In this document: positions 17,337 through 36,271 of the stretch, one piece after another
Numbering within the stretch: the first letter of the stretch is position 1
How the letters are laid out: each line of letters opens with the position of its first letter
Source of the DNA: Actinomycetota bacterium
GTDB taxonomy: Bacteria; Actinomycetota; AC-67
Reading direction: 5' to 3'
Length of the DNA: 36,303 nucleotides
Assembly: GCA_005884515.1 (NCBI GenBank)
Contig: VAWS01000007.1
Span: 1-36,303, forward strand
Made by a program: the position numbers and the translations under genes
The notes under the pieces: model-generated
What the model was told of the DNA's origin: nothing
The model's database searches: none
What the model saw: the letters and a program-made list of their open reading frames with translations, nothing else

Positions 17337-18249
17337 CTTCGAAAGGGCTGCTCGATTGCCCGCACTCGTTGCTGCTCTCGAAGCGCAGTCGATACCGCTT
17401 GGGGATTTCGAGGTGATCGTCGCCGACGACGGTTCACGCGACGAGACCCAGGCCGTGCTCGCCGATCTGGCGGCACGCACGCGGTTGGCTCTGCGCGTCG
17501 TGCGCAACGCCACGAACAGCGGGCCGGGTAGAGCTCGAAACCTCGCGTGGCGGTCGAGCGATGCACCGATCATCGCGTTCACCGACGATGACTGCTTGCC
17601 CAACCCCGGATGGCTGGAGGCGGGTCTCGGTTTTCTCGAAGACACATCGGTTGGCATCGTTCAGGGGCGGACACTTCCCGACCCGTCGGTCCCGGACAAG
17701 GGCTGGGCGAAGACGGTTCGTATCGTTGGATTCTCGAAGAAGTACGAGACATGCAACATCTTCTATCGGCGCGCGGTCCTCGAAGAAGTGGGCGGGTTCG
17801 ACGAGGAGATCATCTTTTTCGGAGAAGATGTTGTACCCGGCTGGAAGGCGCGCCGGCTTGGGATCACCGCCGAGTTCGCGACCGAAGCGCTCGTCTATCA
17901 CGCAGTGACTTACCCCGGACTTCGTTACTGGTGGCGCTTCGCCTCGATCCACGCCAACTGGGCAACCTTGGTTCGCCGCTTTCCCGAGATGCGCCGCGAC
18001 TTGTTGTGGGCCAACGCATTCCTCGCGCGCAGGCACGCAGCTCTTCTCCTGGGTGTCGTCGGTGCTGTAGTCGGAGGAACCGTGTGGCTCCCGGCGTTAC
18101 TGCTGGCCGTCCCGTACCTGATCCTGGTGGCTCCACGGCGCTTCCGGCGTCGCGATTTCATCTCTTTCTTCGCATCGATCGCTTTCGATGCCGCAGTAAT
18201 CGGAGGTATGCTCAGAGGCAGCCTTCGCGAGCGCGCCCTCGTCCTGTAG
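17308..18249 (+). CDS. Glycosyltransferase family 2 (tandem paralogue B)
   Basis: Near-identical N-terminal catalytic half to 16360..17298; TTG start preceded by gagaggtccgc; C-terminus RGSLRERALVL. Confidence 0.9.
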   Translation: MARVSVVIPTFERAARLPALVAALEAQSIPLGDFEVIVADDGSRDETQAVLADLAARTRLALRVVRNATNSGPGRARNLAWRSSDAPIIAFTDDDCLPNPGWLEAGLGFLEDTSVGIVQGRTLPDPSVPDKGWAKTVRIVGFSKKYETCNIFYRRAVLEEVGGFDEEIIFFGEDVVPGWKARRLGITAEFATEALVYHAVTYPGLRYWWRFASIHANWATLVRRFPEMRRDLLWANAFLARRHAALLLGVVGAVVGGTVWLPALLLAVPYLILVAPRRFRRRDFISFFASIAFDAAVIGGMLRGSLRERALVL

Positions 18250-18311
18250 CGTGCACGCTGCCGCCGAGCAGGTCCGGATCCGATGCATAATCTAAGCCAG
18301 CCACAGGTCTT

Positions 18312-19172
18312 GTGACGACCGAAACCATCGGAGGGTTTGCTGACGTGAGTGCGAGAACCGAGGTTGGATTCGAGCTTAAGGGGGAACGGTCGAAGCTCGG
18401 TCCGCTCTTAGCGGATCTGTGGCGATCCCGAGACCTGACCCGCTTGCTGGCGAAGCGAGAATTCCTCGTCAACTACCGTCGCGCATCCTTCGGCGTTCTT
18501 TGGGCGATCGGGCTTCCCCTTGCTCAGGCACTGATTGTTGGGCTTACGCTGTCTCGGGTCGTTCGCTTTGAAACGAAGGGCCCGTACGCACTCTTCGTCT
18601 TCGCCGGGACTCTGCCGTGGACGTTTTTCAACGGAGCGCTAACCGTCGCAACAAACTCGATCGTTATCGGATCCGAACTGGCGACCCGTGTCTATTTTCC
18701 GAGAGCGGTATTGCCGATCGTTACGGTCCTCTCTGCGTTACGCGGGTTCATTCCCTCCGTCGCCGTGTTGATCGGTCTCGCTGCGATCTTCCGAGTACCC
18801 TTGGGTTTGGATCTGTTCCTGCTGATACCGGCCACGGTTCTGATGGTCACGCTTACGGCCGGATTCTCGCTCGTACTCGCGGCACTCCAAGTCTATTTCC
18901 GTGACATGAAGTTCATCGTTGCGGCGTCGACACTTCCGTGGTTTTGGGCGTCGGGAGCGATCTTTCCCCTAGACAAGCTGGGATCCATGCGGCATTGGCT
19001 GGAGCTGAATCCGGTCGTTGGAATGATCGAGTTCTACAGAGCATCGCTTGGAACGGCGTCCGCCGGCTGGGGACGATCGGTGTGGATCTGCGCAGCATGG
19101 GCGGTCGGCCTCATCGCGCTATCGCTGCCTCTGTACCGACGGTACGACCGCGTTTTTGTCGATCTTCTATGA
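18312..19172 (+). CDS. ABC-2 type transporter permease, polysaccharide exporter (second copy, Wzm-like)
   Basis: LTRLLAKREFLVNYRRASFGVLWAIGLPLAQALIVGLTLSRVV...TLPWTFFNGALTVATNSIV...LGSMRHWLELNPVVGMIEFYRASL; next to a Wzt-like ATPase. Confidence 0.88.
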   Translation: MTTETIGGFADVSARTEVGFELKGERSKLGPLLADLWRSRDLTRLLAKREFLVNYRRASFGVLWAIGLPLAQALIVGLTLSRVVRFETKGPYALFVFAGTLPWTFFNGALTVATNSIVIGSELATRVYFPRAVLPIVTVLSALRGFIPSVAVLIGLAAIFRVPLGLDLFLLIPATVLMVTLTAGFSLVLAALQVYFRDMKFIVAASTLPWFWASGAIFPLDKLGSMRHWLELNPVVGMIEFYRASLGTASAGWGRSVWICAAWAVGLIALSLPLYRRYDRVFVDLL

Positions 19173-19187
19173 GAGCGTGAGGGTCAT

Positions 19188-20507
19188 ATGCCATCAGCGG
19201 TCAGTCTGACGGACGCTGGGAAACGCTACGTGAAATACGATGACGTTCCGCTGCTCATCACTCGGGCGTGGCGATTCTCCACTGGCCAGCGCCGCAGTCA
19301 ACTGTGGGCTCTTCGGCACGTTGACATGGAGATCCAACCAGGGGAATCGGTTGGGGTTATCGGTCGCAACGGCGCCGGGAAGTCGACCATGTTGCGGCTG
19401 CTGGCGGGCGTGACCGGACCGACGGAAGGGATCGTTCGTGTACGGGGCCGAGTCGCCCCGCTGATCTCGGTCGGCGTCGGCTTCCATCGCGAGCTGACCG
19501 GTCGCGAGAACGTGTACGTGAACGGAGTCATCTTGGGCCTTACGACGCGGGAGATCGACGGCCTGTTCGATTCCATCGTCGCCTTCTCTGAGATCGAAGA
19601 CTTCATCGATACCCCGGTCAAGTTCTATTCCTCGGGGATGTTCGTACGGCTTGGGTTCGCGGTTGCAGTTGCCTCCGATCCGGAGGTGCTGCTCGTCGAT
19701 GAGGTGCTTGCGGTTGGAGACTTCGCTTTCCAGAAGAAGTGTTTCGACCGCATGGAGCAGATTCGCAGCGGCGGCGCGACCATTGTCGTCGTGAGCCACA
19801 ATATGGCTGCCGTCCGCAGTCTCTGCTCGCGGACGATCGTCTTGGATGGCGGTGTTCCCGTCTTCGAAGGCGCGACGGATGAGGCGATCTCGATCTTCCA
19901 CGAGATGCTTGCAAAGCGTGGGATCTCCGCCGAAGAGTTACCGGCAATCAAGATCACAGACTTCACTCTGCAAGATGAACAGGGCAATCCGACCGCGCAC
20001 TTCGAGGTCGGCGATGAGATGACTTTCTGTGTCGAAGCGCAGTTCGCCGAGCCATCGGAGAATCCCGCCGTGCTGCTTCGGATCTACACCGAGGATGGTC
20101 AACTCGTGTATGGAGAAGTTCCGGTTCTGAGCGAGCCGACTCCGGTCGATGCAGGCGGCATGGTGCGGTGGATCGTTCGTCTTCCCGCGTTGTTGCCAAC
20201 GCGGTCGTATTCAGCTGAAGCCCTGGTCGGGACCAGGCTTGCTGTGGACGCGCCGATGTCGGGTTCGCGGCCGATCTTGTTTTACGTCTCCGGGCGTCCC
20301 TTCGTTCTTGGAGCAGCCGATCTGCGCGCTACGTTCGAGGCGCGCGCATACCCGTCGACCGACATCGATCAGGGAGCGAAGCCCAGCGGGGAGACGTCCC
20401 CGCGCCCTGTCGAGACGCCGGCGCCCGGTGTCGCCGACGGGAGCGAAAACTTCGGAGAGGCACCCTCGACGCTGGTTCCGCCGGATGAGCAGTTCGACCA
20501 CAGTTGA
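19188..20507 (+). CDS. ABC transporter ATP-binding protein, Wzt-like (second copy, all motifs present)
   Basis: Walker A GRNGAGKST, signature FYSSGM, Walker B/D-loop VLLVDEVLAVGD, H-loop VSHN; C-terminal Wzt-type beta-rich region. Confidence 0.93.
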   Translation: MPSAVSLTDAGKRYVKYDDVPLLITRAWRFSTGQRRSQLWALRHVDMEIQPGESVGVIGRNGAGKSTMLRLLAGVTGPTEGIVRVRGRVAPLISVGVGFHRELTGRENVYVNGVILGLTTREIDGLFDSIVAFSEIEDFIDTPVKFYSSGMFVRLGFAVAVASDPEVLLVDEVLAVGDFAFQKKCFDRMEQIRSGGATIVVVSHNMAAVRSLCSRTIVLDGGVPVFEGATDEAISIFHEMLAKRGISAEELPAIKITDFTLQDEQGNPTAHFEVGDEMTFCVEAQFAEPSENPAVLLRIYTEDGQLVYGEVPVLSEPTPVDAGGMVRWIVRLPALLPTRSYSAEALVGTRLAVDAPMSGSRPILFYVSGRPFVLGAADLRATFEARAYPSTDIDQGAKPSGETSPRPVETPAPGVADGSENFGEAPSTLVPPDEQFDHS

Positions 20508-22648
20508 GAGTCCTCTGGGTCACGCGCGAATTTCCGGACGCCCACGGCTCAGGCGCTCAGGTCCATCAATTCGAGCTCTTACGAGCCGTTGCCGCGTCGC
20601 ACCAGATAAGCATCATCAGCAGTTTTTGGGATATCAGCCGCGAGGCGCTCCTGCGTGTCCAAGAGATGGGTGTGCGCGTGGAGGTCGTTCCGTGGCCTTG
20701 GAACCGGATGTCGCGTGGCCGCATCAGGAGAGTTGCGCGGTTACTAAGGGGAGCGGCGCCAAACTTTGTGGCCTCAGCCATGGTCGGCCAAGTGAGACCC
20801 TTATCCCAAGCAGTCGCAGCTCATGAGCGATATCGACCCGTCGACCTCGTCTGCATCCTCCAAGGAGACCTAGCCCCAGTCGCCGACGTCGCGAACGCAC
20901 CGACCGCGCTATTCCTTTTCGATGTCGTGTCGCGCCAGGCCGATCTTGTGCTGTCGCAAGACGGCTTATCGCTCCGATCGGTTCGCCGTCGGTTGGAGCG
21001 CCGCACCGCGCTCCGTTGGGAACCCCTCTGGTATCGGAAGGCTGATTCGGTCGCGTGCGTTTCGTCGGTCGACGCCGCGATCGTTGCCAAGATGTTGGAT
21101 AGAAACGTGACCGTTATCCCCAATCCGATTCCGGACGAGTTCTTCGCACGCGGGTCGAGTCCTCCTTCAACGTCAACGGTGGCCTTCATCGGCTCGCTTT
21201 CTTGGGAACCGAATGCGGATAGCGTTCGATGGATCTGCTCCGACATCTGGCCGAGGGTCCGTGCTCGGCGTCCGGACGCTCGTCTCCGGATCGTCGGCCG
21301 CTTCCCGACCGATGAGCTCCGCCGCCTCGTTGAGGCCGTGGGAGGGGAATTCCTCGCCGACGTGGGGGATGTTCGGCCCTTCTATTGGGGAGCTGCCGTC
21401 GTGATCGCCCCCGTCCGCATGGGCTCGGGCATGCGGAACAAGGTTCTGCACGCTATGGCATGCCGGGCCCCGCTTGTCGCAACACCGAGTGCCCTCGAAG
21501 GCATCCCGGCGGTTGCAGGGAAACACCTCCTCGTTGCTGAGGGCGCCGGGGATCTCGCCGACGCCGTCGTGGCCACATTGGATGATCCTGCGTCGGCCGC
21601 CGCCCGCGCGGGAACCGCGTTCGAGCTGGCTCGGCACTACACGAGCGCAGCCGCCGGGGCAGCGCTCGAATCGTGGTGGCGAGATACGGCCGCATTGAGA
21701 CCGGCCGGTTCTGTCGCTGCACCGCAGAAGCGCGCAGCACTTAGGGCCACCGTCGTCGTCTGTACACGCGACCGTCGGGACCTTCTTCGAAGATGCCTTG
21801 CAAGTGTTCAAAGGGCGGTCGCGATCGTCCCAGATGCAGACGTTGTCGTCGTGGAACAGGGGGAGCCTTTCGCAGCGCAGATCTGCTCGGACATCGGGCT
21901 GGCCGCAACTGTTGTGCCCGTTGACGGTTCGGGGGTTTCTCGAGCACGAAATATCGGACTCCGCAACGCTCGAGGCGACGTCGTGTTGTTCACGGATGAC
22001 GACTGCGAAGTGCCCACCACCTGGGTTCGCGATCACCTCGAGGCACTTCGGGAGCCGGATGTCGACGCATCGTTCGGTCAGGTGACCGGGTTAAGCAGGT
22101 GGGGGGCTGATTCGGCCGACGCTGCTGCGATGCCTAGCCGCCATCGGCACGGCGCTCCGCCGTGGCTCATCGGACATTCGTCGAACCTCGCCGGTCTGAA
22201 GAGCCGGCTTCTTTCCGTAGGAGGGTTCGACGAGCGCTTGGGTCCCGGCTCGCCATCGGGAGCTGCCGGTGAGGATGCCGACCTCATCGTCCGACTCCTC
22301 AGGAGCGGAGCCGCCCTTGTCTCCGGGACGGGCGAAGCAGTTCGCCACATACCCTGGCGCACCGAGGAAGAGGATCGACGCACGATCGTTTCGTACGAAC
22401 ACGGTGCGGGGGTATGGATCGGAAAGGCTCTCCGAGAGGAACCCCTGATTGCTTTGTCGTTTCTCCGCAGCCGCCTCGGCCAGTTGAAGGGCTATCTCCG
22501 GCACTCGCGAGCATCGGAAGGCAAGCCGGTGAGTGGCCTGATCCTGGGACGGGCGTTCCTTAGTGGACTCCTCGCGGGTCTTCGTGTGAAACCGTGGAAC
22601 GGGCCGGTTGGATCACCTGTGGGTTCCGAGCAGATTCCCTTTCGTTGA
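20504..22648 (+). CDS. Bifunctional GT4-GT2 fusion glycosyltransferase
   Basis: N-terminal GT-B fold (MRVLWVTREFPDAHGSGAQVHQFELLRAV...VAFIGSLSWEPNADSVRWICSDIWP...APVRMGSGMRNKVLHAMACRAPLVAT). C-terminal GT-A (RATVVVCTRDRRDLLRRCLASV...VSRARNIGLRNARGDVVLFTDDDCEVP). ATGA-type overlap with Wzt. Confidence 0.9.
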   Translation: MRVLWVTREFPDAHGSGAQVHQFELLRAVAASHQISIISSFWDISREALLRVQEMGVRVEVVPWPWNRMSRGRIRRVARLLRGAAPNFVASAMVGQVRPLSQAVAAHERYRPVDLVCILQGDLAPVADVANAPTALFLFDVVSRQADLVLSQDGLSLRSVRRRLERRTALRWEPLWYRKADSVACVSSVDAAIVAKMLDRNVTVIPNPIPDEFFARGSSPPSTSTVAFIGSLSWEPNADSVRWICSDIWPRVRARRPDARLRIVGRFPTDELRRLVEAVGGEFLADVGDVRPFYWGAAVVIAPVRMGSGMRNKVLHAMACRAPLVATPSALEGIPAVAGKHLLVAEGAGDLADAVVATLDDPASAAARAGTAFELARHYTSAAAGAALESWWRDTAALRPAGSVAAPQKRAALRATVVVCTRDRRDLLRRCLASVQRAVAIVPDADVVVVEQGEPFAAQICSDIGLAATVVPVDGSGVSRARNIGLRNARGDVVLFTDDDCEVPTTWVRDHLEALREPDVDASFGQVTGLSRWGADSADAAAMPSRHRHGAPPWLIGHSSNLAGLKSRLLSVGGFDERLGPGSPSGAAGEDADLIVRLLRSGAALVSGTGEAVRHIPWRTEEEDRRTIVSYEHGAGVWIGKALREEPLIALSFLRSRLGQLKGYLRHSRASEGKPVSGLILGRAFLSGLLAGLRVKPWNGPVGSPVGSEQIPFR

Positions 22649-23426
22649 TATGCTCATCAAGAGATCCGGACCCACGGGAATCACTTCCGCGCATGGCGAG
22701 TATCTCGCCGATCAGGATGTAAAGGAAGCAAACCAAAACGCCGGCCACGCCCGCGATAACCAGTTTCTTCGACAGATCCCCGATCTTCTGTTTGTTGACC
22801 GTTCCCGCAGGCGAGAGCAACGACACTTCGTCGGGCGGATAGCTTGTGATGTTGGCCAACAATTGCGAGTTGTAGAGGATCTGGGCTGTGCGTGTCTGTA
22901 GTGTGACTTTTTGACCAGGCGTCAGCTTGGCCGCTGGGATCGCAGCAAGCTTGGCCACTTCACTCTCGATCGAATCGATGCGGTCCTGCACCGCTTTCAC
23001 CTTAGCTGCGAGCTGATCTGCGCGATTCTTCTTTATCGAGCTCACGTATTCGTTACACACTGCATTTGCGAGACGGGTCGCCCTCGCAGGGCTGGGATCC
23101 ATGACCGTCACAAAGAAGGTGCCGAGGCCAGGGGAAGGCGCAGTCGTCGTCTCGCTGGCGATAACGCCCGCCGGCGTCTTTTCGTGCGCGCTCACCCTGC
23201 GGTAGAGGCCGGAAGACGCGACGGTGCCCACCTCTTGCAAGGCGAGGCCGCCTATGAACTGCGCGTGCTCGGGCGTGGAGGGATCCTCACGCGAAAGATG
23301 GATGAACGCTTGAAACACACAGTTGGTTGAGTAAACGGTTTTCGCTTGCCTCTTGTAGGCCAGGCCTCCGGCACCGATCGAGACAAACAATATGAGCGCG
23401 CACGGCAAAACGTAGCGACGTAGCAT
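22560..23426 (-). CDS. Wzz-like chain-length determinant / capsular polysaccharide biosynthesis protein
   Basis: N-terminal TM (YVLPCALILFVSIGAGGLAY), periplasmic coiled-coil region (ADQLAAKVKAVQDRIDSIESEVAKLAA), C-terminal TM (LVIAGVAGVLVCFLYILIGEILAM). Confidence 0.75.
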   Translation of the reverse strand: MLRRYVLPCALILFVSIGAGGLAYKRQAKTVYSTNCVFQAFIHLSREDPSTPEHAQFIGGLALQEVGTVASSGLYRRVSAHEKTPAGVIASETTTAPSPGLGTFFVTVMDPSPARATRLANAVCNEYVSSIKKNRADQLAAKVKAVQDRIDSIESEVAKLAAIPAAKLTPGQKVTLQTRTAQILYNSQLLANITSYPPDEVSLLSPAGTVNKQKIGDLSKKLVIAGVAGVLVCFLYILIGEILAMRGSDSRGSGSLDEHINERESARNPQVIQPARSTVSHEDPRGVH

Positions 23427-23493
23427 GACGCCGAGTTTATCAGTCGAATGACGCTATCTCAGCGCTTCGCGCGAGAATCGGGTATCGGCAACC

Positions 23494-24984
23494 TTAAGCC
23501 ACGACTGCGTCCGCGCTCGCCTGCGAACGCACCGGTCCCATGGCCGGCACTGCGTTGGGCCATGCAAGTGCGATGCCAGGAATCCCCCATAAAGGTATTT
23601 CGACCACCAACTCCTGGACGCCCAGGAAGAGGCCTGCCACTGCGAGCGCAATGATCGCGCCGATCGCGCCGGCAGCGATTGCGACGTGCTCCCCGTCGCC
23701 GCGGGCGCGAGCCCGCAGCCGTGTGGATCGTAGTCTCATCATGAGCGCATATAACGCCACAAGGTAAAGGAAGAGACCTTGCACTCCGGTTTCGAGCGCG
23801 CGCGCCAAGAAGGTGTTCTCGGTTGCCCCCAATTGTCCTGCTCCAGCTTTCGGCCGGAATCGATATCGATCCGTGGTACCCAAGCCGTACCCGAACGGCC
23901 GAGCCGCGAGGAGGTCGATGTCTTGAAACAGGTGCTCGCGATGAGAAGAGTTGCTTTCCGACCGCACGAGATCCTGATTATTCGAGGCGAGGTAGGAGAT
24001 CGAGATGCTTCCTGCGATCACGACCACAAGGCCAACGATGGAAAGCCGGATGCCCGGGTTGCGAACCGTCAGGGCGAGGACGGCGAGGACTCCTATACCG
24101 CCGCCGATGTATCCGCTTCGAGTGATCGTAACGATGAGTCCGCCGGCGCACAGCCCCACAGTGAGCGCCGCGATCCACCGCAATCTCGAGCGGACCGTCA
24201 CTACCCCTGTGGCGAAGGGAAGCAGTGCGGCAAGATAGAAACCGAGGATGAGTGGATCGGTTATGAATGAACCCGCTCGGTAGCCTCCCGACGGAAGAAC
24301 GAACGGCTCCCCACTCGGCGGCGGGACGGCTCCATACCAGCGATGGAAGGCTAAGCGCGGCCCGAACCACTCGATCAGCGCGGCCCCTCCCATCACAAGC
24401 GCAGCGGTCAGCGCCGCGGCGATCAAGAAACTCAATTGGTCCTTGTTAGGCCGCAGCCATCTGATGGTCAGGAACAAGAGGGGGCCTTCGATGTAGAGGC
24501 CGAGTGCAGGCAAGACGGTCGTACGAGCCGGAGACGCCACGGCGAACAAAATGAAGGCGAGAACGTAGAAGAGAACGAAATTGTCGCCGGTGTTTCCGAG
24601 CGGAACACGACGGTCCCTCACGATGCGCTCGAGCAATGCGCGCGCGAAAAGCGCCACGATGACGGCATCTTTCCAATACACGAGAGGCCCGGCATTGAGC
24701 CCGGCGTGGCTCTTGAGAGCTGTGAAGATCGCGACGTTGAAAGGCTGGATGAAGAAGAGGAAGCCGAGAGCCAGGATCGGATACCGGAAGATCGCAACCA
24801 CCGCGGCGGCGGCGAGCAGGACTCCGAGCAGTGCGAGAGGATGGCCGACTGCCAGAACGATGACACCACTCAAGAACACGAGGCCGGCGGCGGTCGCCAG
24901 AGACTTGATCGCCCACGGCCGTTCCGTGATCGTGCTGCTCAACCGGAAGTCTCCCGTCTCGTTCTCGCAGATCTGATGTTGCAC
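23494..24984 (-). CDS. O-antigen polymerase/ligase-like multi-spanning membrane protein (Wzy/WaaL-like)
   Basis: About 12 hydrophobic segments; family-like FITDPLILGFYLAALLPFATG, ITRSGYIGGGIGVLAVLAL and GATENTFLARALETGVQGLFLYLVALYALM. Confidence 0.82.
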   Translation of the reverse strand: MQHQICENETGDFRLSSTITERPWAIKSLATAAGLVFLSGVIVLAVGHPLALLGVLLAAAAVVAIFRYPILALGFLFFIQPFNVAIFTALKSHAGLNAGPLVYWKDAVIVALFARALLERIVRDRRVPLGNTGDNFVLFYVLAFILFAVASPARTTVLPALGLYIEGPLLFLTIRWLRPNKDQLSFLIAAALTAALVMGGAALIEWFGPRLAFHRWYGAVPPPSGEPFVLPSGGYRAGSFITDPLILGFYLAALLPFATGVVTVRSRLRWIAALTVGLCAGGLIVTITRSGYIGGGIGVLAVLALTVRNPGIRLSIVGLVVVIAGSISISYLASNNQDLVRSESNSSHREHLFQDIDLLAARPFGYGLGTTDRYRFRPKAGAGQLGATENTFLARALETGVQGLFLYLVALYALMMRLRSTRLRARARGDGEHVAIAAGAIGAIIALAVAGLFLGVQELVVEIPLWGIPGIALAWPNAVPAMGPVRSQASADAVVA

Positions 24985-24994
24985 CCGGTCATCG

Positions 24995-26005
24995 TCACGA
25001 CTTCGTCTTACTGTCCGCGGTCATGGTAAGCCCCCGCTCGACCTGTTTCGCCGATGCCCTCGGCCACCAGCATCGCGGTCGCTTTCGGGGAGCATCTTTT
25101 CGACCACCACTCCAGAGCTGCTTGCAGCGACGCTGCGGCAGCGGCTCGGTTATCGGCACGCAGCCCGATGCGGCCGCCTCGAACAGTCGGTATGTTTCGC
25201 GGAATCCTCCTCGAGGGCACGGAGCAAGCCTCGTCTGCATCATCAGCTCTTCATAGCCTTCCACGAGCTTTGCATCGTGAAAGGAGTCGAAAAGTCGGAT
25301 CTCAACCCGGACGTCCGGTCGTTCACGCGCTATCTCTTCGAGAGCGGCGATGAGCTTCCGCCGCGAGCGGGTTTTCTGGGGCAAGACCCACCTGCGGCGC
25401 CCTTCATTGATCATGCTTCCGGCGAAAGACAGGTCGTAACGGCGCGCATCCAAAGGGGCAGCCCGTCCGGTCGGGAACGACCAAGGGGCCAGCGGGATCT
25501 CGATGAAGTGGGGTCGCCTCCGATGACGGATCGTGCGAACCATCGAAGCGACGGCGCTGGGGAGACGAAGCAGCTGCGCGCGCAGCTCCTGCAGCACGGC
25601 GGCCGGCACGTGGCCCCAGCTCCGGATCGGGCCCAACGCAACGAACGGTCGCCGTGTCCATCCGCCGGTCTTCGCGACGAGGTTTACGTCGTGCGAGTAG
25701 TTCGGTTTCCTTCCCAGTTCGTCGCCGAGGCAGAAGACGATCACATCGTCCCCCGTGTACGGCAGCTTGGGCTCCACTCCCCAGAACCAAGCAACGAGCA
25801 CCCGGAGGTTCGCCGCTCTGCTAGGCCCCAGGATGTCGGCGAGTGCGAGCAAGGTCCTCCCGATGTACTCGGCGTCTCTCGGGATCCATGGATGCTCGCC
25901 GACGGGATCAGAGAGGTCCGCCCAAGGGAGCCACGCGTGAGGGTCGGCTCGGTTGAAGTCATAGATATGGACGCTCCGAAAACCTCCCGATGTAGTGTCG
26001 ACCAT
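24995..26005 (-). CDS. Exostosin-like glycosyltransferase (C-terminus probably frame-disrupted near 25.1 kb)
   Basis: RRYDLSFAGSMINEGRRRWVLPQKTRSRRKLIAALEEIARERPDVRVEIR...EELMMQTRLAPCPRGGFRETYRLFEAAASGCVPITEPLPQR. ATG at 26005 is just after the upstream stop. Confidence 0.65.
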   Translation of the reverse strand: MVDTTSGGFRSVHIYDFNRADPHAWLPWADLSDPVGEHPWIPRDAEYIGRTLLALADILGPSRAANLRVLVAWFWGVEPKLPYTGDDVIVFCLGDELGRKPNYSHDVNLVAKTGGWTRRPFVALGPIRSWGHVPAAVLQELRAQLLRLPSAVASMVRTIRHRRRPHFIEIPLAPWSFPTGRAAPLDARRYDLSFAGSMINEGRRRWVLPQKTRSRRKLIAALEEIARERPDVRVEIRLFDSFHDAKLVEGYEELMMQTRLAPCPRGGFRETYRLFEAAASGCVPITEPLPQRRCKQLWSGGRKDAPRKRPRCWWPRASAKQVERGLTMTADSKTKS

Positions 26006-26009
26006 CCCT

Positions 26010-27125
26010 CTAGCCCCCGATCGCCCGGCGGTAGGCGTCGACCGTGCGTGCAGCGTGTTCGCGCCACGTCGGAAGTGAAGGCTGAGGCAGCCGGGGGACC
26101 GAACGACCGGCCGCCGAAACGATCGCTTCGACCCACGCGGTCGGATCGTCAGCGGGTATGTGGACCGCGCCACCACGGGCCACCTCGACGAGCGCTTCGT
26201 CGTTGCTCGCTATGACAGGTGCTCCGAGCGCAAGTGCCTCTGCAACTGGAAGACCGAACCCTTCCTCGATGGCCGGAGCGAGAACGACCGTCGCGTGCTC
26301 GTAGTACCAACGCAACTGCTGGTCCCCAACTCGGTGTGCCCACATCGCGTGCCCCCGCTCTGCGAGCTTTTCGAGCCGGTCGCGCGTCTGGGCGCTTCGC
26401 CACCCGTCGGGGCCTACCGCGACAAGTTGCAGCCCATCTGTGGCGGAGGCTACCCGGTCCCAGATGTCGATGAGAAGGGACACGTTCTTCCGAGGCGAAA
26501 GGTCGCCGACCACCAATGCGAATCGACCGGCCGGCTTATCGATGGGAAGAAGGGGAGACGCCGACGTGAGCTCTACGGATACCCCGTTCTGTGCGACCAT
26601 CGTCTTGGATCGAAAAGATCCGTCGACCTGCGCAAGCCGCTTCGCGGTCGCCTCGCTGACCGCCAACAAAACGCTGGCTGCACGAAGCGAAGCGCGGAAA
26701 TAACGGGGTAGGAGGGCCCTCTTAACGAAGGCGTATTGCTGGGGCCACGTGATCGCCAGCACATCATGCACCGTCAGCACGGTTGGAAGTTTGGTTCGGG
26801 GCAGCAGATGCTTCGTTCCGTGGATGACGTCGACACTGCGCTTCTCCAGGATCGGGCCGAGGCGATAACGCTCCCACAGCGCCCGGTCGATCTGGCTGCG
26901 TCCACCGACGGTGATGATGTCGTTTACGTTCGGCACATCGATGCTTTCGAGGGCGCCACGAGCTTCCGGCGGGATGATGACCGTCATCTCGACGGCCTGT
27001 TCTTGACCAAGAGCCAGGATGAGCTCGCGGATGTATCGCCCCATGCCGCCGCCGCCGGCGAGAGCGGAGGCAAGAAGCCCGATCCGCATTCGAGCCGTCA
27101 CGTTCGCTTCTGCGCGATCCCGCAC
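26010..27125 (-). CDS. Glycosyltransferase family 4
   Basis: MRIGLLASALAGGGGMGRYIRELILALG...VDVIHGTKHLLP...VVGDLSPRKNVSLLIDIW...LAPAIEEGFGLPVAEALALGAPVIAS. Confidence 0.9.
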   Translation of the reverse strand: MRDRAEANVTARMRIGLLASALAGGGGMGRYIRELILALGQEQAVEMTVIIPPEARGALESIDVPNVNDIITVGGRSQIDRALWERYRLGPILEKRSVDVIHGTKHLLPRTKLPTVLTVHDVLAITWPQQYAFVKRALLPRYFRASLRAASVLLAVSEATAKRLAQVDGSFRSKTMVAQNGVSVELTSASPLLPIDKPAGRFALVVGDLSPRKNVSLLIDIWDRVASATDGLQLVAVGPDGWRSAQTRDRLEKLAERGHAMWAHRVGDQQLRWYYEHATVVLAPAIEEGFGLPVAEALALGAPVIASNDEALVEVARGGAVHIPADDPTAWVEAIVSAAGRSVPRLPQPSLPTWREHAARTVDAYRRAIGG

Positions 27126-28267
27126 GCCGTTTCGTACGCGTCCATGACAAGCTTCAGATGTTCGTCCCAGTCCAACAGCCCGTCGTCTGCGTCGGCTGAT
27201 GTGCCCACCGGCGCGTTCGCGAAACTCAGCAATCTCTCGGATAGTTCCTTCCGGTCACCGGGGCGGAACAGGAACGGCCGGGATGACGGCGCTATGAGCT
27301 CCGGTATTCCGCCGATGGAGGCCCCGATGACCGGTATGTTCCGGGCGCGCGCCTCGTTCACGACGAGCGGAGCGGGATCTTTCCACTCCGACGGCACCAC
27401 GAGCGCGTCGATCCGTTCGAAGAAGTGGTCCCGCGCGGTGTTATCCAGCCAGCCCAGCAGCTCGATCCGGTTCGATGCGCGCGCGGCGAGCGTTTCGGAC
27501 AAGGGCCCGCCCCCTCCTATGAGGAGACGAGCCGATTGCGGGAGGTCCGCAGCCTCGAACGCTGCAACCAAGGTCGCGACGCCCTTATCCCTAGTCAGCC
27601 GGCCGAGGTAGCCGAAGACCACACCGTTACCGGTGCGGATGTTACGCGACGTTCGTACGACCGGATTGTGTACCACCCGCAGCCGGTCTCGTATCCACGC
27701 GATACTTCTGTGCTCCACGGCAACCGCCTCCGAAACAGCGAGGACGACGTCCGGCGGGTGCCGATCGATGATCTTGTTCCTTATCGTGCTGATCGCACGG
27801 CAACTAAGGCAGCGTGTGTCGCATGCACCTCCGTTCCGCTTCAAGAGGGATGAGCGTTGGCAGAGCAGCCAGTAGTCGTGGATCGTGTGAACGTGTCCTA
27901 TGCCCGTGCGGTCGCGTATCGCAAGAGCAGCGCTCGAGAGGCCGGACACGGCGTGTGTGTGCACCACGTCTGGCCGGAATGCGTCGATCGCCTCATGGAT
28001 GGCCCGAGGTGCCGCCGGCCGGTAAACGTCGAGCAGGTGGAAAGCTGATCGAGAAGCAGCTCCTTTGGATGCGTACGCGTCGAGCCTGTACGGCCATGGA
28101 GATAGCGTAGAGACGACGTCGTCTCCGCCGACGCCGAACGTGAGAACGCCTACCTCGCCGCCGCGCGCGCGCAACTGATCGGCCAAAGCCGAAGCATAGG
28201 ACTCCGCACCTCCGAGGACGACCGGAGGCCAAAGGCTCGAGATCATCAGGATGCGTCGGACGGTCAT
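27098..28267 (-). CDS. Glycosyltransferase family 4
   Basis: MTVRRILMISSLWPPVVLGGAESYASALADQLRARGGEVGVLT...VVHTHAVSGLSSAAL...FGYLGRLTRDKGVATLVAAF...VPSEWKDPAPLVVNEARARNIPVIGASIGGIPELI. Confidence 0.9.
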   Translation of the reverse strand: MTVRRILMISSLWPPVVLGGAESYASALADQLRARGGEVGVLTFGVGGDDVVSTLSPWPYRLDAYASKGAASRSAFHLLDVYRPAAPRAIHEAIDAFRPDVVHTHAVSGLSSAALAIRDRTGIGHVHTIHDYWLLCQRSSLLKRNGGACDTRCLSCRAISTIRNKIIDRHPPDVVLAVSEAVAVEHRSIAWIRDRLRVVHNPVVRTSRNIRTGNGVVFGYLGRLTRDKGVATLVAAFEAADLPQSARLLIGGGGPLSETLAARASNRIELLGWLDNTARDHFFERIDALVVPSEWKDPAPLVVNEARARNIPVIGASIGGIPELIAPSSRPFLFRPGDRKELSERLLSFANAPVGTSADADDGLLDWDEHLKLVMDAYETACGIAQKRT

Positions 28268-28381
28268 CGGATCGTTGGACGAGGTGTGACACACACAGGG
28301 TGAACGTAGCACGATGGCGTGGCGTCATCCGGTGCATCGTTCGAGCAGCCTCGGATGCTGCCCTCAATTATCATCCTCGGC

Positions 28382-29542
28382 ATGCGCCTCGCCGTGTACT
28401 GCCCATGGGTTCACTTGATCGGAGGCATCGAGCGAACGCTGCTCGAACTGATGCAGCGTTCACGACACGAGGTAACCATCTATACCCATCGCTTCCGGGC
28501 GGAGCTGACGTACCCGGGGCTGAGCGGCCGTGTCATCGAATTCAAGCCCCCCGTGTCCGTCGAACGGTCTATGACTCCGCTGGTCGGTGCCGCCTGGAGG
28601 ATCGCTCGCACCGAGCTAAGCGAGCGAGATGCTGACGCCCTATTGGTTTCGTCGAATGATCTCGGCGATCTGATCATGGCGCGGACCCGCCTACCCGCGG
28701 CGTGTTACTGCTGGACCCCTCTGAAGATCCTTCACGACCCGGCCTTGCGAGAGGGGCTGCGGCGCCGTGACAAGCGCAAGTCGCAGGCTCTGAGCGTGTT
28801 GGGCCCTGCGCTCGATGCCGTGGATCGCCGGATGTGGCGGCGCTATGACCACGCGTTCGTTTGCAGCGGGGAGGTTCTTCGCCGCGTCCAGAACGCGCGC
28901 CTTGTACCAAGTGGTCCGGCAGAGGTGCTTCATCCGGGCGTCGATCTGGAGTGGTTCTTCGATGATGGACGATCCAGGGAAGACTTCCTCCTCGTCGCAG
29001 GGAGGATCAAGTGGTGGAAGAACGTCGACCTTGCGATCGCAGGATTCGCCGAGGCAGTCCGGCGGGGAGGCCGCCTATCTCTGGTGATAGCGGGCGTGGT
29101 CGATCCATATGACGAGAACTACCTTGAGTCGCTCCGTGCGCAGGCGGCGGGTTTGCCGGTGCGATTCGAAACGGGACCTTCTCAGGAGCGTTTGCGCGAG
29201 CTCTTGCGCGGGTGCCGCGCATTGGTCTTTCCCACCCTCAACGAGGATTTCGGCATGGTTCCGCTCGAAGCGATGGCCTGCGGCGCGCCCGTCATCGCGG
29301 TGGACGCGGGGGGCCCCCGTGAGTCGGTCGTGGACGGTGAGACGGGTTGGCTTGTTCCACCGACTGCACACGCGTTTGCGGACGCGATGCTCGAGGCAAC
29401 TTCCACGTCGCGCGCCGAAGAGATGCGCACGGCGGCTCGGGCGAGAGCCGCTCAGTTCTCGTGGGATCGCTTCGTTAGACGGGTCGATGACGTGATGGAT
29501 GAGATCCTGGACCGGCGAAGGGTCGCACAAGCGAATCCTTAA
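28382..29542 (+). CDS. Glycosyltransferase family 4
   Basis: MRLAVYCPWVHLIGGIERTLLELMQRSRHEVTIYTHRF...FLLVAGRIKWWKNVDLAIAGF...FPTLNEDFGMVPLEAMACGAPVIAVDAGGPRESVVDGETGWLV. Confidence 0.9.
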   Translation: MRLAVYCPWVHLIGGIERTLLELMQRSRHEVTIYTHRFRAELTYPGLSGRVIEFKPPVSVERSMTPLVGAAWRIARTELSERDADALLVSSNDLGDLIMARTRLPAACYCWTPLKILHDPALREGLRRRDKRKSQALSVLGPALDAVDRRMWRRYDHAFVCSGEVLRRVQNARLVPSGPAEVLHPGVDLEWFFDDGRSREDFLLVAGRIKWWKNVDLAIAGFAEAVRRGGRLSLVIAGVVDPYDENYLESLRAQAAGLPVRFETGPSQERLRELLRGCRALVFPTLNEDFGMVPLEAMACGAPVIAVDAGGPRESVVDGETGWLVPPTAHAFADAMLEATSTSRAEEMRTAARARAAQFSWDRFVRRVDDVMDEILDRRRVAQANP

Positions 29543-30513
29543 TCCATCGTCACCAGCTCATGCACAGCCGCGGTTTCTCGAGCGGCCCGTTCCCACGTGA
29601 ACATCGCCGCGTGCCGGCGTCCACGTTCGGCGAGGGAATCGGCGAACGCGTGGTCTTGTTGGAGTCGGATCATCGCGGTCGACCATGCCTCGGCATCGAT
29701 CCCATCCAGCAGCAGCGCCCCGTTCCCCAGCACTTCGGGCAAGGATCCGGCTCGCGACGCGATGGCCGGGGTTCCCAGGGCCATCGCTTCGAGGGGTGTG
29801 AAGCCGAACCCTTCGAATCCAGACGGATGAACAAGTGCGCGCGCGCCGGCGATCAATGCGATGAGATCGTTATCCGAGACGTGGCCGGTCAGGGTCACGT
29901 CGGCGCCGACACCCCGCTGTTCGATCTCCGCGCCGACCTCCTCTGCGCCGAAGCCTCGAGGGCCCACGACGAGGAGGCGGATGGTGTGCGGCTTGAGCGC
30001 AGCCGCTCGTACGAGGGTCGTGACGTTCTTGCGAAGCTCGACCTTGCCGACGCAGACGAAGTATCCGCCTCTTTCCACTCCGAAGCGCGAGCAGACCTCG
30101 GCCAGCGTGCTTTCCGGGAGCGTGACTCGGAATCGGTCCGAGATGCCGTGGTGTACGACGGTGATGCGCGCGCGCTCGATCCCGAGCCGGTCTTCCGCCG
30201 CGTCGGCGACGGCGCCCGACACGGCGACGATCATCGCTGCACGTTTCGCGGCATCCTTGAGTGCCGCGATCCCGAGCCTGCTCTCGCGACGCCGAAACGC
30301 TCCGGCGTCGTCGAGATGCTGCAGGTCGTGAAGCGTGTACACGATCGGCTTACGCGAGGGAACGGGGAACGTGGGGGAGAGCACGTGTACCAGATCGGCG
30401 TCGGGGGAGAAGCGTTCGATCTTCGGGTACCGCGCGAGGTACCAGGCCAGGTGCAGGGCACGTCTGGGTCCGGGGAGGCGACGGATGGGTATCGGTGGGT
30501 CCGCCGGGGGCAA
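29539..30513 (-). CDS. Glycosyltransferase family 4, N-terminally disrupted (original start probably 30544 in another frame)
   Basis: DLVHVLSPTFPVPSRKPIVYTLHDLQHLDD...YFVCVGKVELRKNVTTLVRAA...VHPSGFEGFGFTPLEAMALGTPAIASRAGSLPEVLG. The 30544 start reads MTRIALYASQLAPGGPTD in a different frame. Confidence 0.82.
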   Translation of the reverse strand: MPPADPPIPIRRLPGPRRALHLAWYLARYPKIERFSPDADLVHVLSPTFPVPSRKPIVYTLHDLQHLDDAGAFRRRESRLGIAALKDAAKRAAMIVAVSGAVADAAEDRLGIERARITVVHHGISDRFRVTLPESTLAEVCSRFGVERGGYFVCVGKVELRKNVTTLVRAAALKPHTIRLLVVGPRGFGAEEVGAEIEQRGVGADVTLTGHVSDNDLIALIAGARALVHPSGFEGFGFTPLEAMALGTPAIASRAGSLPEVLGNGALLLDGIDAEAWSTAMIRLQQDHAFADSLAERGRRHAAMFTWERAARETAAVHELVTMD

Positions 30514-30540
30514 GCTGTGATGCGTAGAGGGCGATTCTCG

Positions 30541-31827
30541 TCATCGCTGCTGGTGACGATCCAGATCGTCGAGCCGATCCGTCGGCGACCGGCGCTCTTC
30601 GGGACGGCCGTGCTGAAACCGCTCTGCAGCGGCGCGGTGCCATGCCTCGAGGGTCCCGGCCAAAGCATCGATGTCCAACTCTTCCGCGGTCATCAGACCT
30701 CCTTCGACAACGCGGTTGCGAAGTTCAACATCGGAAGCGAGCCGACGGACGGCTTTCGCCAGAGCCGTCGCGTCGCCGGGGGGAGAGAGGAGACAGTTAG
30801 CTCCGTCGCGGAGGTATTCCCCGGATCCACCCGTTCCCGTTGCGACGACGGGTATACCGCAGGCCATCGCTTCTAGGGGAACAAGTCCGAACGGCTCGGA
30901 CCAAAGGACGGGGAATACGACGACATCGGCCTCCATATAGGCCTTGTGGAGGTCGGTTCTGCCGGAGTGGTCGCTGAAACGGACACGTCCTTCGACTCCC
31001 AAACGCGCGGCCTGTTCCCTCAAGGTCGAGAGGTAGTCGGAATCGCCGCGTCCGCGTATCTCCAAGGTTGCCTCATCCGGAAGAAAGGAGAGGGCATCCA
31101 GCGCGACGTGGATGCCTTTTCGCTGATCGAGACGCCCCGCGTAAAGGAGACGCCATCGCCACGCGCGGCGTGGACGACCTCCAGCGAGAGGGGGGAAGAA
31201 CCTCCGATCGATACCTGAGTACACGACCGAGCCGTTGCGCGCTGCTTCCGGTGTGGTCTTCGTGGCGGCTTGTCGCACGACATCGCTCACGAAGAGGAAT
31301 GTGCCGCTCATTCCCAGCTCCGGAACGGACGTTGGTACTCCGGTGAGACGGCGTACCGCGCGCGCGATCGCCCGGCGACCGGTGAAGAGCCGAGACCAAG
31401 CGTCGAGCTTGGGACCATAGAGGAGCCAGTCGTCGCAAACCATATAAACGAGGGGTATCTGCTTTTCGATGATCGTCGTGAGAAGGCCGAACGACATCGC
31501 TCCCATGTTCCAAACGGAAACGACCTCGGGCCGTTCGGCCGAGATCGCATTCTCAAGGGCCAGCTGGTTGGCCCTTTCGATCTTCAGTCTCTCCGGAAGC
31601 GACGGACTGAGCAGCCGATGGTCGTCCCAGTAGAAAGCAAGATCCCGTCGGACGCCGCCAGTGCGCTCGTCGCGGCGATCGGCCACGCCGGGCAGGCGCA
31701 ACGTGGTCGTGAGGACAGTGACTCTATGGCCGTGGGCCCTAAGCCGTTCGACAGTGTCGTAGCAAGAGAGCTCATAACCGCCGTAGTGATGTGGCGGGTA
31801 CATGTTGGTCAGCACCAGAATCCGCAT
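30541..31827 (-). CDS. Glycosyltransferase family 4
   Basis: MRILVLTNMYPPHHYGGYELSCYDTVERLRAHGHRVTVLT...LLYAGRLDQRKGIHVALDALSFLP...FPVLWSEPFGLVPLEAMACGIPVVATGTGGSGEYL. Confidence 0.92.
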   Translation of the reverse strand: MRILVLTNMYPPHHYGGYELSCYDTVERLRAHGHRVTVLTTTLRLPGVADRRDERTGGVRRDLAFYWDDHRLLSPSLPERLKIERANQLALENAISAERPEVVSVWNMGAMSFGLLTTIIEKQIPLVYMVCDDWLLYGPKLDAWSRLFTGRRAIARAVRRLTGVPTSVPELGMSGTFLFVSDVVRQAATKTTPEAARNGSVVYSGIDRRFFPPLAGGRPRRAWRWRLLYAGRLDQRKGIHVALDALSFLPDEATLEIRGRGDSDYLSTLREQAARLGVEGRVRFSDHSGRTDLHKAYMEADVVVFPVLWSEPFGLVPLEAMACGIPVVATGTGGSGEYLRDGANCLLSPPGDATALAKAVRRLASDVELRNRVVEGGLMTAEELDIDALAGTLEAWHRAAAERFQHGRPEERRSPTDRLDDLDRHQQR

Positions 31828-32150
31828 CAGGATTGGTTGGTCGTGATTAACATGAGCGGGACCTGGTAGATAGACGCGAAGGTTTTCTCAGAATCTTTCC
31901 AGGGCCGGGCGGGATTCACCCGGCGGTCTCGCGGCGCAGTATAGCGAGCAGTCCTTTGGACAAGCAGCCGATACGGGGCAACTTGCCCGCTAGTGGGTGT
32001 GTCGGGGGACGGGCGCGCGTGAGCGGTGTGGGCACGCTGGCATGTGTGCTCCTCCAGACGTTACCCTTCGTTGGAGTCGTTTTGAACCCTCTGGACAGAT
32101 CGGGGCGATGATCTTTCGAGGCCTGCGTCCGAGCTTGGGCGGCTGATCCA

Positions 32151-32867
32151 TTGACGCCCTCCGGCCTCTTCCACGGCTTCGTGGAGGTCGGCTCCAACGA
32201 CGGTGAGAAGTACGACCACCTCAGCTCGATGATCCATGCAGGTGGCTGGGGTGGCATCATGGTTGAACCTGTTCCCTATGTGTTCGAGCGTTTGCGTCAG
32301 AACTATGGAGACACACCGGGCGTCATACTCGAGAATGTCGCCATCGCCGACCGCGACTCCCGGTTGCCCTTCTATCATCTCGCTCAACTAGATGAGCAGG
32401 AGAAGGGGGCGGTTCCGGATTGGTACGACGGGATCGGGTCGTTCGTCCTCGAAACGATCATGGATCACCGGGATAAGATCCCCGACCTCGAGCGAAGGGT
32501 TGTCCGCACAGAAGTCCCCTGTGTGACGTTTCAGACTCTGTGCGCGAAGAACGGAGTCAAGCGGGTCGACCTCATCCTTATCGACACTGAGGGGTTCGAC
32601 TGGGAAGTCATAAAGAACATCGACTTTGCTCTTCACCGCCCCCGGCTTCTTGTCTATGAGCATTTTCACCTCTCGTCCGAGGTTCGGGGGGAGTGCCGTC
32701 GCTACGTTGAGAGTCTCGGGTACGAGACGATGGAAGAAGGGTTCGACACTTTTTGCCTAGACGTGCGGATCGTCGATGATCTGACGAGGTTTTGGCGGCG
32801 CCTCCGCCCGGCGGTGGCCGGGCAGTCGGCCGAGACGGAGAACACGGCGGCCCAAGAAAGCGCCTGA
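32151..32867 (+). CDS. FkbM-family methyltransferase
   Basis: GFVEVGSNDGEKYDHLSSMIHAGGWGGIMVEPVPYVFERLRQNY...ILENVAIAD...VDLILIDTEGFDWEVIKNIDF. TTG start; RBS not obvious. Confidence 0.82.
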   Translation: MTPSGLFHGFVEVGSNDGEKYDHLSSMIHAGGWGGIMVEPVPYVFERLRQNYGDTPGVILENVAIADRDSRLPFYHLAQLDEQEKGAVPDWYDGIGSFVLETIMDHRDKIPDLERRVVRTEVPCVTFQTLCAKNGVKRVDLILIDTEGFDWEVIKNIDFALHRPRLLVYEHFHLSSEVRGECRRYVESLGYETMEEGFDTFCLDVRIVDDLTRFWRRLRPAVAGQSAETENTAAQESA

Positions 32868-32907
32868 CGCCACCCAAGTGCCGCGTCTTGCGCATCTTTG
32901 GGACGCA

Positions 32908-33747
32908 CTACTTATTCCAAATACTCAGATCCCTATCAAGCCACGCGCCGAGCTTCGCATTGTCCTCGGCGAAATACTCCATGAGATCGTGCCGGAGATC
33001 GGGCTCAATGGGGGGAGGTGAGAGACCCTCACGAGTAAAGAGGCGCAGCATCGGGAGCCAGATTTTCAACGGGATCTTTCCACCAAGAGCAGGTCGTATC
33101 AGGAGACGAAGCAGAGGAGTTGCACGTGACTCGCGATACGTATTCGTAATCTGCCCGACGTTCGAGGGGATGATCGTTGGGTCGACGCCGATGTGAAGGC
33201 AAAGCGTTCGAAATGTTTCGAGAGGATTCGCAGCGAGATCATCGAACAAGAGAACCTTGAGCTGCTCCCGACGAAAATGCTGTGTCAGATTGACGAGTTG
33301 GGAAAGGTAGCGGCTGAACGCGAGATAGAACGGCCAGCGTCTACCGTCCGTCGCCTGGCGTTCATCCTCGAAGGCTTGCCGAAAGCTGCGTCGCTCCATG
33401 GCGTAATACCGAGCGTGAAGGAAGTGCGAATATGCTCGGTCGACGGGGTTTCTAAGGATGGCTACCAAACGAGCCTTCGGGACAACAGATGCCATGCGAG
33501 GCGCGGCCTCGACCGGGAAGAGATATGAGGGTGATGCCTCTCCGATAGCCTTCTTTCCTGCCCCGGACTTGAAGTGGGATGTGTACCAATCCAGCCCACG
33601 AGAGAAATTTGCTTCATCGCTGAAGAAGTTGATTTCCTTCCCAGCTGGCACATAGACGTCGGGATGTTCCCGTAGGTAATGCCAGAGCGAGCTGGTTCCA
33701 GACTTGGCCGCACCGACGATCAGGAACGTGGGAAGGATCGGGTCCAT
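32908..33747 (-). CDS. PAPS-dependent sulfotransferase family protein
   Basis: 5'-PSB-like motif TFLIVGAAKSGTSSLWHYLREHPDVYVP and 3'-PB-like motif RLVAILRNPVDRAYSHF; also KEINFFS and EASPSYLF blocks. Confidence 0.9.
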   Translation of the reverse strand: MDPILPTFLIVGAAKSGTSSLWHYLREHPDVYVPAGKEINFFSDEANFSRGLDWYTSHFKSGAGKKAIGEASPSYLFPVEAAPRMASVVPKARLVAILRNPVDRAYSHFLHARYYAMERRSFRQAFEDERQATDGRRWPFYLAFSRYLSQLVNLTQHFRREQLKVLLFDDLAANPLETFRTLCLHIGVDPTIIPSNVGQITNTYRESRATPLLRLLIRPALGGKIPLKIWLPMLRLFTREGLSPPPIEPDLRHDLMEYFAEDNAKLGAWLDRDLSIWNK

Positions 33748-34405
33748 ACCGCTAGCTCGAAGACCGCTGATTGGCCGGCGGGTCTCCCAGCCGGAGATCC
33801 TCCGGAACTGAACGATGACAATGGCGGCGTAACGAGAAAGCGGTCGCGGCCCGGAATGATTCTGCGACACAGCGTTGCTCGATGCGATTGCCCCAGACCC
33901 CGGATCCGCGGGATAGCCGTAATGGCTCCTGAGCCGAACAAAAGCCTTCGAGACGCATCAGGGACGCATGATCCTTCGCGCTGTTGCGCGCGATCCTAGC
34001 CCCCACTCCCGCTTCCTCTGCGATGAAGTTCGTTGACGGACCCGGCGATCGGCACTTCCAGTGACGAGATACCTGATGGCATCCATAAACGTGGTGTAGA
34101 AGTACCGAACAGTAGGATCCATGGCCTGATTCTAGCCCGGATTTGCCCCCGTTCACGGCTGCGATCTCAGGTCCGCCATTTCTCGGCTGGTGGCCTTCAT
34201 CGGAACAGGCAAACAACGGCCAGACATGACGCACTACTGCGAACGAAGGTCAGAATGAGATTCCGGGTCGTACGCGTGAGATGAGACGCGGAGGCTACGA
34301 TGATGCGAAACTGTTTCGACCAAGTTGGTAAGGCTAATTGGACTCTAGGGATTTACGGATGTGCGGACCTTTCTACCCGTGCTCATGCCCGGGGCATATG
34401 TACCC

Positions 34406-34534
34406 ATGAAACCTTCTACCTCGCTGCGCGCCAAGCTTGAGGCGCTCAACGGGGCGCTGGCAGCGCGGCTCCACAGACGCCTCGTTGCGTGGAGCTCGCG
34501 AAAGGCCGGCTCGCTGCCGGAGGGCTACCCGTGA
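34406..34534 (+). CDS. Small hypothetical protein (42 aa), coupled to the GT8 gene
   Basis: ATG at 34406 reads MKPSTSLRAKLEALNGALAARLHRRLVAWSSRKAGSLPEGYP*, with the stop overlapping the GT8 start as TGATG. Too short for the supplied ORF track. Confidence 0.4.
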   Translation: MKPSTSLRAKLEALNGALAARLHRRLVAWSSRKAGSLPEGYP

Positions 34535-35460
34535 TGAGCACTTCCATCCAGCTCGCCTGCGCGTCGGACCGCAATTACATGCCGCACTGTGCGGCGATGC
34601 TGCATTCTGCGCTGAGTCACGGTGCCGGTCATGGCTTCCGGATCCACTACCTCCACGGGCCCGACGTCCCCGCCAGATCAAGGGAGCTCGTGGCCGGGAT
34701 GATCGAGCGCCAGGGCGGCACCATCTCGTTCGTTGAGATTCCCGACGAGCGGATCGACGGGCTACCGATCACGCAGCACTTCAGCCGAGCGATGTGGTAC
34801 AGGATCCATCTGCCCGAACTCCTGCCGAACGTGGAGCGGGTCCTGTACCTGGACGCCGACCTCATCGCTCTTGACTCGCTCGAGCCTCTATGGGAAACCG
34901 ATCTGAAGGGCAACTACGTTGCGGCCGTTACGAACGTATTTGGACCTTGGGACGTGGACTATCCTGCCAAGCTCGGTTTGCCTTCCCCTGAGAGCTATTT
35001 CAACACGGGCGTCCTCCTCATGGACCTTGATGAGATGAGAGCGGACAACTGCACCACCGCTTTGCGAGAGTGCGCGCTGGAACACGGCGAGGCTTTTTGG
35101 TTCCCCGATCAGGACGCGATGAACGTAGTGCTTGCAGGCAGGCGCTTGCCTCTGCACCCCCGATGGAACTCCATGAGCGCTCTCTTCACCTTTTCCGCAA
35201 GCGTGGGAATCTTCGGATCGGATGCCACCGATGAAGCCCGACGGCGGCCGGCCATCCGCCATTTCGAGGGTGGCGGGGCCAACAAGCCGTGGCATTATTT
35301 GTGTGACCAGGAGATGCGTGAGGTGTATTTCGAACATCGTCGCGAAACGCCTTGGCCGAACGTCAGGCTCGAGGGCCTCACACCTGCAAACGTCCTGAGG
35401 CGTTTGACTCGCCGCACCCGGCATCGCTTGCCCAGATCGGTCGGTGATCGCTCATCTTGA
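34534..35460 (+). CDS. Glycosyltransferase family 8 (LgtC/glycogenin-like)
   Basis: MSTSIQLACASDRNYMPHCAAMLHSAL...RAMWYRIHLPELLPNVERVLYLDADLIALDSLEPLW...YFNTGVLLMDLDEMR...FPDQDAMNVVLAGRRLPLHPRWN (DxD and DQDxxN blocks). Confidence 0.92.
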   Translation: MSTSIQLACASDRNYMPHCAAMLHSALSHGAGHGFRIHYLHGPDVPARSRELVAGMIERQGGTISFVEIPDERIDGLPITQHFSRAMWYRIHLPELLPNVERVLYLDADLIALDSLEPLWETDLKGNYVAAVTNVFGPWDVDYPAKLGLPSPESYFNTGVLLMDLDEMRADNCTTALRECALEHGEAFWFPDQDAMNVVLAGRRLPLHPRWNSMSALFTFSASVGIFGSDATDEARRRPAIRHFEGGGANKPWHYLCDQEMREVYFEHRRETPWPNVRLEGLTPANVLRRLTRRTRHRLPRSVGDRSS

Positions 35461-35506
35461 TCGTTGCCTGGGGGCATAGTCCCCATCCGCTATTCAAGGC
35501 AAGAAC

Positions 35507-36271
35507 ATGATCCGAAGCGTGGTCCGTCGGTTCCGACGACGGCGAGAAACATTGGAGCCTTCTGCGAGCCCGCCCGAGATGGCTACGCTTAGCGCGCTCG
35601 AAAGAGAGATCGTCGACAAGGCGCTGCCGTTCTCAATGACGAGCGTTGAGCGGGTTGTTGCATTGATCGACTCAGTTCGTTATTGCGTCAAGCGCGACGT
35701 GCCCGGTGCTTTTGCCGAATGCGGCGTCTGGCGAGGCGGCTCGATCATGGCCATGATCTACACGCTGCTGGATCTAGGACGCGACGATCGTGACATCTAC
35801 CTCTACGACACGTTCGAAGGGATGACCCGGCCGACGGAAGTCGACACATCACGAGTCGACCGGACCGCGCTGGACTGGTGGAAAGACGTTGAGGGTACTG
35901 AACACCGGGCCTTCCCGCATTTCTTTGATCCGGACGTCTTCAACGAAGACATCGTGCGGCGCGACGTCATGGCGACCGGATATCCGGCGGAACGTCTGCA
36001 TTTCGTCCGTGGGCGCGTGGAGGACACCCTGCCGGAGCAGGCGCCCAGTCGTATCGCCCTCCTACGACTCGACACTGATTGGTACGAGTCCACGCGTCAC
36101 GAGCTAATCCACCTTTACCCGCGTCTATCGCAGGGCGGCGTCCTGATCGTGGATGACTACGGCCACTGGGACGGCTGCAGACTTGCCGTCGACGAATACT
36201 TCGCGACGGAAGCCGACCCGGTTCTACTCACCCGGATCGACTACACGGGACGAATCTGCGTCAAGAGTTGA
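35507..36271 (+). CDS. TylF/MycF-family (macrocin O-methyltransferase-like) methyltransferase
   Basis: GAFAECGVWRGGSIMAMIYTLLDLG...IYLYDTFEGMTRPTEVD...LLRLDTDWYESTRHELIHLYPRLSQGGVLIVDDYGHWDGCRLAVDEYF. Confidence 0.92.
   Translation: MIRSVVRRFRRRRETLEPSASPPEMATLSALEREIVDKALPFSMTSVERVVALIDSVRYCVKRDVPGAFAECGVWRGGSIMAMIYTLLDLGRDDRDIYLYDTFEGMTRPTEVDTSRVDRTALDWWKDVEGTEHRAFPHFFDPDVFNEDIVRRDVMATGYPAERLHFVRGRVEDTLPEQAPSRIALLRLDTDWYESTRHELIHLYPRLSQGGVLIVDDYGHWDGCRLAVDEYFATEADPVLLTRIDYTGRICVKS

Follow-up and report, generated by a model that had tools for sequence, protein, structure and literature searches.

A GT4 glycosyltransferase gene split between two reading frames in a draft genome: probable local assembly error rather than a dead gene

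The 36,303-nucleotide stretch of an Actinomycetota draft genome analysed here (the window) carries a GT4-type glycosyltransferase gene that is split between two reading frames, which raises the question of whether the gene has decayed in the organism or was broken during assembly. On the minus strand its ATG, with the A at 30544, overlaps the TGA of the upstream gene as ATGA, and translation from this ATG gives MTRIALYASQLAPGGPTDTHPSPPRTQTCPAPG. The frame reads MTRIALYASQLAPGGPT first, a GT4-like beginning, and then the non-family-like DTHPSPPRTQTCPAPG, just as a first-pass annotation of the sequence had described. The same annotation had the enzyme resuming in another frame at about 30495; the actual break is at 30493/30492, 2-3 bases away. 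The mechanically called ORF (30513-29539, minus strand) starts at a TTG and encodes 324 aa. It matches PF00534 with an E value of 1.1e-28 (residues 151-300, profile positions 17-171 of 172), while its match to PF13439 begins only at profile position 43 of 170. Positions 1-42 are absent, and the window copy as assembled therefore lacks the complete PF13439 domain with its glycine-rich first loop; its N-terminal domain is short by about 38 residues.

For comparison we used contig G001:C59 (L012) of a same-genus MAG that is 62% complete, the only other genome of the genus compared (the sister); the public record VAYV01000004.1, isolate AC_67 14_0929_05_20cm, seems to be the same contig. Its 17,978 bp align with window positions 18099-36166 at 98.7% identity. 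At the position corresponding to 30493/30492 the sister has exactly 113 bp extra and one unbroken frame, encoding a GT4 protein of 372 aa that shares 98% protein identity with the window product and has the longer open frame. This protein covers PF13439 over positions 3-167 and contains the glycine-rich N-terminal segment GGPTGIHRYVTEITRALFAVHPDRYRLL. The junction flanks, 121 bp, are otherwise identical to the sister with zero mismatches, and the breakpoint is unambiguous. The earlier proposal that a glycine-rich segment is missing together with a frameshift is thus borne out, and the alignment to a full-length homologue that had been suggested for sizing the gap gives 113 bp against the sister.

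The missing region is also present, as AGGHSGVPRYAAKLLEALDAVSPGY, in a homologue of 32% identity that belongs to a different genus in the family, and since both relatives carry the segment it is part of the ordinary gene. The E-x7-E motif of the C-terminal domain reads EGFGFTPLE in the window, the sister and a homologue from genome G004. A natural start at the TTG at 30513, the case that the first-pass annotation had named as telling against its account, is rejected, as the homologues found begin at a position matching the ATG at 30544. A search for the 113-bp segment elsewhere in the window's genome (G000, 83% complete) did not find it, which argues against its rearrangement into another contig of that genome. 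After the junction the window and sister copies differ at 12 positions over 954 bp; 9 of the 12 fall at third codon positions, and 8 are synonymous while 4 change an amino acid. From these sequences the remainder of the gene looks constrained, although 12 differences are a small sample and too few to serve as proof. A PDB search returned distant matches alone, none with a best stretch starting before query residue 100, so these matches have no bearing on the missing N-terminal segment.

Table 1. Features of the split GT4 gene and one-sided blocks between the window and the sister contig
Feature	Window positions	Strand	Remarks
5' part of GT4 gene	30493..30544	-	reads MTRIALYASQLAPGGPT; start identical in sister (L012:5695)
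Junction, 113 bp of sister (L012:5747-5859) missing	30492..30493	-	blunt, 0 bp microhomology
Remainder of GT4 gene, shifted frame	29539..30492	-	partial PF13439 + PF00534
Upstream GT4 gene, intact, 428 aa	30541..31827	-	equal length in sister
100 bp missing from window, blunt	25125..25128	-	frameshifts C-terminus of glycosyltransferase 26176-24995
144 bp missing from window, 6 bp microhomology	32177..32182	+	in frame, N-terminus of FkbM methyltransferase (32151-32867)
84 bp in window versus 14 N in sister	31931..32014	.	scaffold gap under-sized by 70 bp
69-bp block in window, silently missing from sister, blunt	22956..23024	.	
120 bp (133-134 bp with ambiguous edge) missing from sister	25819..25938	.	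sister gene broken there
98 bp (net 96 bp) missing from sister	27481..27578	.	~32 residues of GT-B C-terminal core gone there
78-bp block missing from sister GT4 gene, blunt	28451..28528	.	

The break in the GT4 gene has company along the same alignment. Over 18 kb the window and sister are interrupted at eight places by one-sided blocks of 69-144 bp, in both directions (Table 1); the window lacks three of them (100, 113 and 144 bp), and at the other five the sister is short. Seven of the eight are unmarked by any N, the four silent losses in the sister measuring 69, 78, 96 and about 134 bp. For the last of these the automatic breakpoint fit left 36 mismatches, and alignment by eye gave ~133 bp with no microhomology. 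Six junctions resolved cleanly; five of them are blunt, with 0 bp microhomology, and the other has 6 bp. The glycosyltransferase at 26176-24995 (minus strand), which is hit by one of the window losses, has weak exostosin/RXYLT1-like Pfam matches. Both this loss and the one in the FkbM methyltransferase gene are likely to be the same artefact as the GT4 split.

Similar blocks recur through the sampled parts of both draft genomes (0.92 Mb from the window's genome, 0.28 Mb from the sister's). Ten contig pairs provided 62,271 aligned bases common to both, and over these 62 kb we found 21 blocks in the 50-200 bp class, all of 69-155 bp; the window's genome lacks 10 of them and the sister's 11. Their sizes show no frame bias (8, 6 and 7 cases with remainders of 0, 1 and 2 modulo 3). 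The same ten pairs contain 53 small indels, all of 1-10 bp, and four larger differences of >380 bp, with no differences at all of 11-68 bp. Most of the other contig pairs are ~92-95% identical, i.e. from different species, and the block sizes are nonetheless alike. Gaps marked by N in the window's genome are irregular (4-270 bp), as a paired-read scaffolder leaves them.

An open frame covers every one of the 21 block regions. Functions read from the translations include a transcription-repair coupling factor, a transaldolase/glucose-6-phosphate isomerase and a glutamine-synthetase adenylyltransferase, so that putative mfd-, pgi- and glnE-like genes are among those hit; the names are provisional because choosing the longest frame mechanically does not always pick out the coding one. 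Disruption is therefore not confined to genes that would be free to decay.

Three further observations were made in passing. The polysaccharide locus at 18099-36166 is 98.7% identical to the sister contig, against ~92-95% for most other sampled shared contigs, an excess that could reflect recent exchange between species or a mis-binned contig. The glnE-like gene on contig G000:C69 (L121) contains a repeated, partly diverged stretch with two near-copies of GQAFRVDTTLRPEGK, and stretches of the sister align to it at two places; this is possibly a chimeric contig, or else the two are related halves of the enzyme. Lastly, a Wzt-like ABC-transporter ATPase in the window (4537-5652, plus strand) is missing ~41 residues near residue 153 (about position 4995) relative to its paralogue at 19188-20507. 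The gap removes Walker B together with the last part of the signature motif, leaving PF00005 matched only over 2-47 of 137; in size and place the loss fits the assembly-loss class, and the locus lies outside the sister contig.

As a control we took one 25-kb stretch of E. coli K-12 (the leu-ilv-mra-fts-mur region), which was matched over at least 80% of its length in 5,392 complete genomes. Thirty-nine full-length matches sampled down the ranking, at 98.0-100% identity, each aligned as one piece of 24,996-25,012 bp. No block of the 69-155-bp class was found in these 39, at a divergence equal to that between window and sister.

These comparisons indicate that the split GT4 gene is very probably a local assembly error and not a dead gene. 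Losses occur in both assemblies, are indifferent to frame and fall in housekeeping-type genes, and one gap is visibly mis-sized, all of which favours assembly error over mutation. The GT4 case has the features expected of such an error, in that a block is absent relative to close relatives from within a conserved gene, and losses of the same kind are found genome-wide in any gene or frame. The assembler or scaffolder would have made a blunt join of two contig ends, losing the ~113 bp in between and shifting the frame; a blunt join made where the gap was under-estimated or negative would give losses of this type. We infer an origin of the join at 30493/30492 in the assembler, and the presence of the segment in the actual chromosome. 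The organism most likely carries an ordinary full-length GT4 gene of ~372 aa in a polysaccharide-biosynthesis cluster. Two observations count against an artefact: the window has no N at all, and one of its blocks has 6 bp of microhomology, as a natural deletion might. In the literature, scaffolding errors are described as short regions in which two contigs are erroneously scaffolded (PMC5079060), a general description; a measurement of this exact kind of loss was not found. In one study of 60 soil samples the assemblies were made mostly with IDBA-UD (PMC6784897). The sample code of the sister, 14_0929_05_20cm, follows the pattern of that study, which suggests that the record belongs to it. IDBA-UD is suspected of such local errors, and the connection to it concerns the sister's probable source study.

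The first-pass annotation had concluded that the segment is deleted and the gene truncated. The absence of the segment stands, but its deletion in the organism is not supported, given genome-wide losses in both assemblies. A genuine recent deletion of 113 bp, leaving a GT4 pseudogene in the sampled population at a fast-evolving surface-polysaccharide locus, would account for a gene that is disrupted as assembled beside an intact relative, the usual mark of a pseudogene, and polysaccharide clusters do lose genes. We nevertheless consider it unlikely: the sampled portions of the two genomes show losses about equally often, the mfd-, pgi- and glnE-like genes are among those hit, frame bias is lacking, the 11-68 bp sizes are empty, and the complete E. 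coli genomes sampled at equal divergence show no such losses. A real deletion would leave no more than a commonplace pseudogene within a polysaccharide cluster. That the soil lineage truly undergoes frequent blunt deletions of 70-155 bp in coding genes, the GT4 gene included, is very unlikely.

The broken gene might also be taken at face value, with a short functional protein made from the TTG at 30513 or through recoding between the two frames. The 324-aa ORF is indeed long and open, with an intact nucleotide-sugar domain at its C-terminus, yet the relatives found run full length from ATG, the product would have to work without the first part of its acceptor-side domain (PF13439 1-42), and a change of frame at the join could not restore the ~38 missing residues; we regard this as extremely improbable. 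No more credible is a mixture of strains, in which the contig would represent the consensus of several strains living together, some of which had truly lost blocks. Populations in soil metagenomes are mixed, but this reading would require losses that are frequent, mostly blunt and indifferent to frame, in several conserved functions and in two separate genomes. Assembly error remains the preferred reading, and its consequence reaches beyond this gene. Block losses occur at about 1 per 3 kb compared in these draft genomes, nearly always without an N to mark them. Because they are so frequent and unmarked, a seeming pseudogene, a shortened enzyme, an absent motif or the in-frame loss of a domain should be taken as biological here only with read mapping or a relative for comparison.

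The closest likeness is to the local assembly and scaffolding errors, of IDBA-UD type, described for metagenomes (PMC7111523, PMC5079060), which show the same wrong joins of contigs in short regions and likewise give incomplete or frameshifted genes and wrong N gaps. Those studies diagnose an error by its lack of perfect read support, whereas the window case is assigned by comparing sequences. The locus also resembles a bacterial pseudogene formed by internal deletion in its disrupted frame and intact relative, but differs in that the loss is not specific to the locus and the rest of the gene keeps a third-position bias. In its domain order (GT-B; PF13439 followed by PF00534), its EGFGFTPLE motif and its ATGA coupling to an upstream GT4 gene, the gene shares the features of GT4-type glycosyltransferases of polysaccharide clusters. 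The sister copy is predicted to be an ordinary full-length transferase of this family, from which the window copy, as assembled, differs by being ~38 N-terminal residues short.
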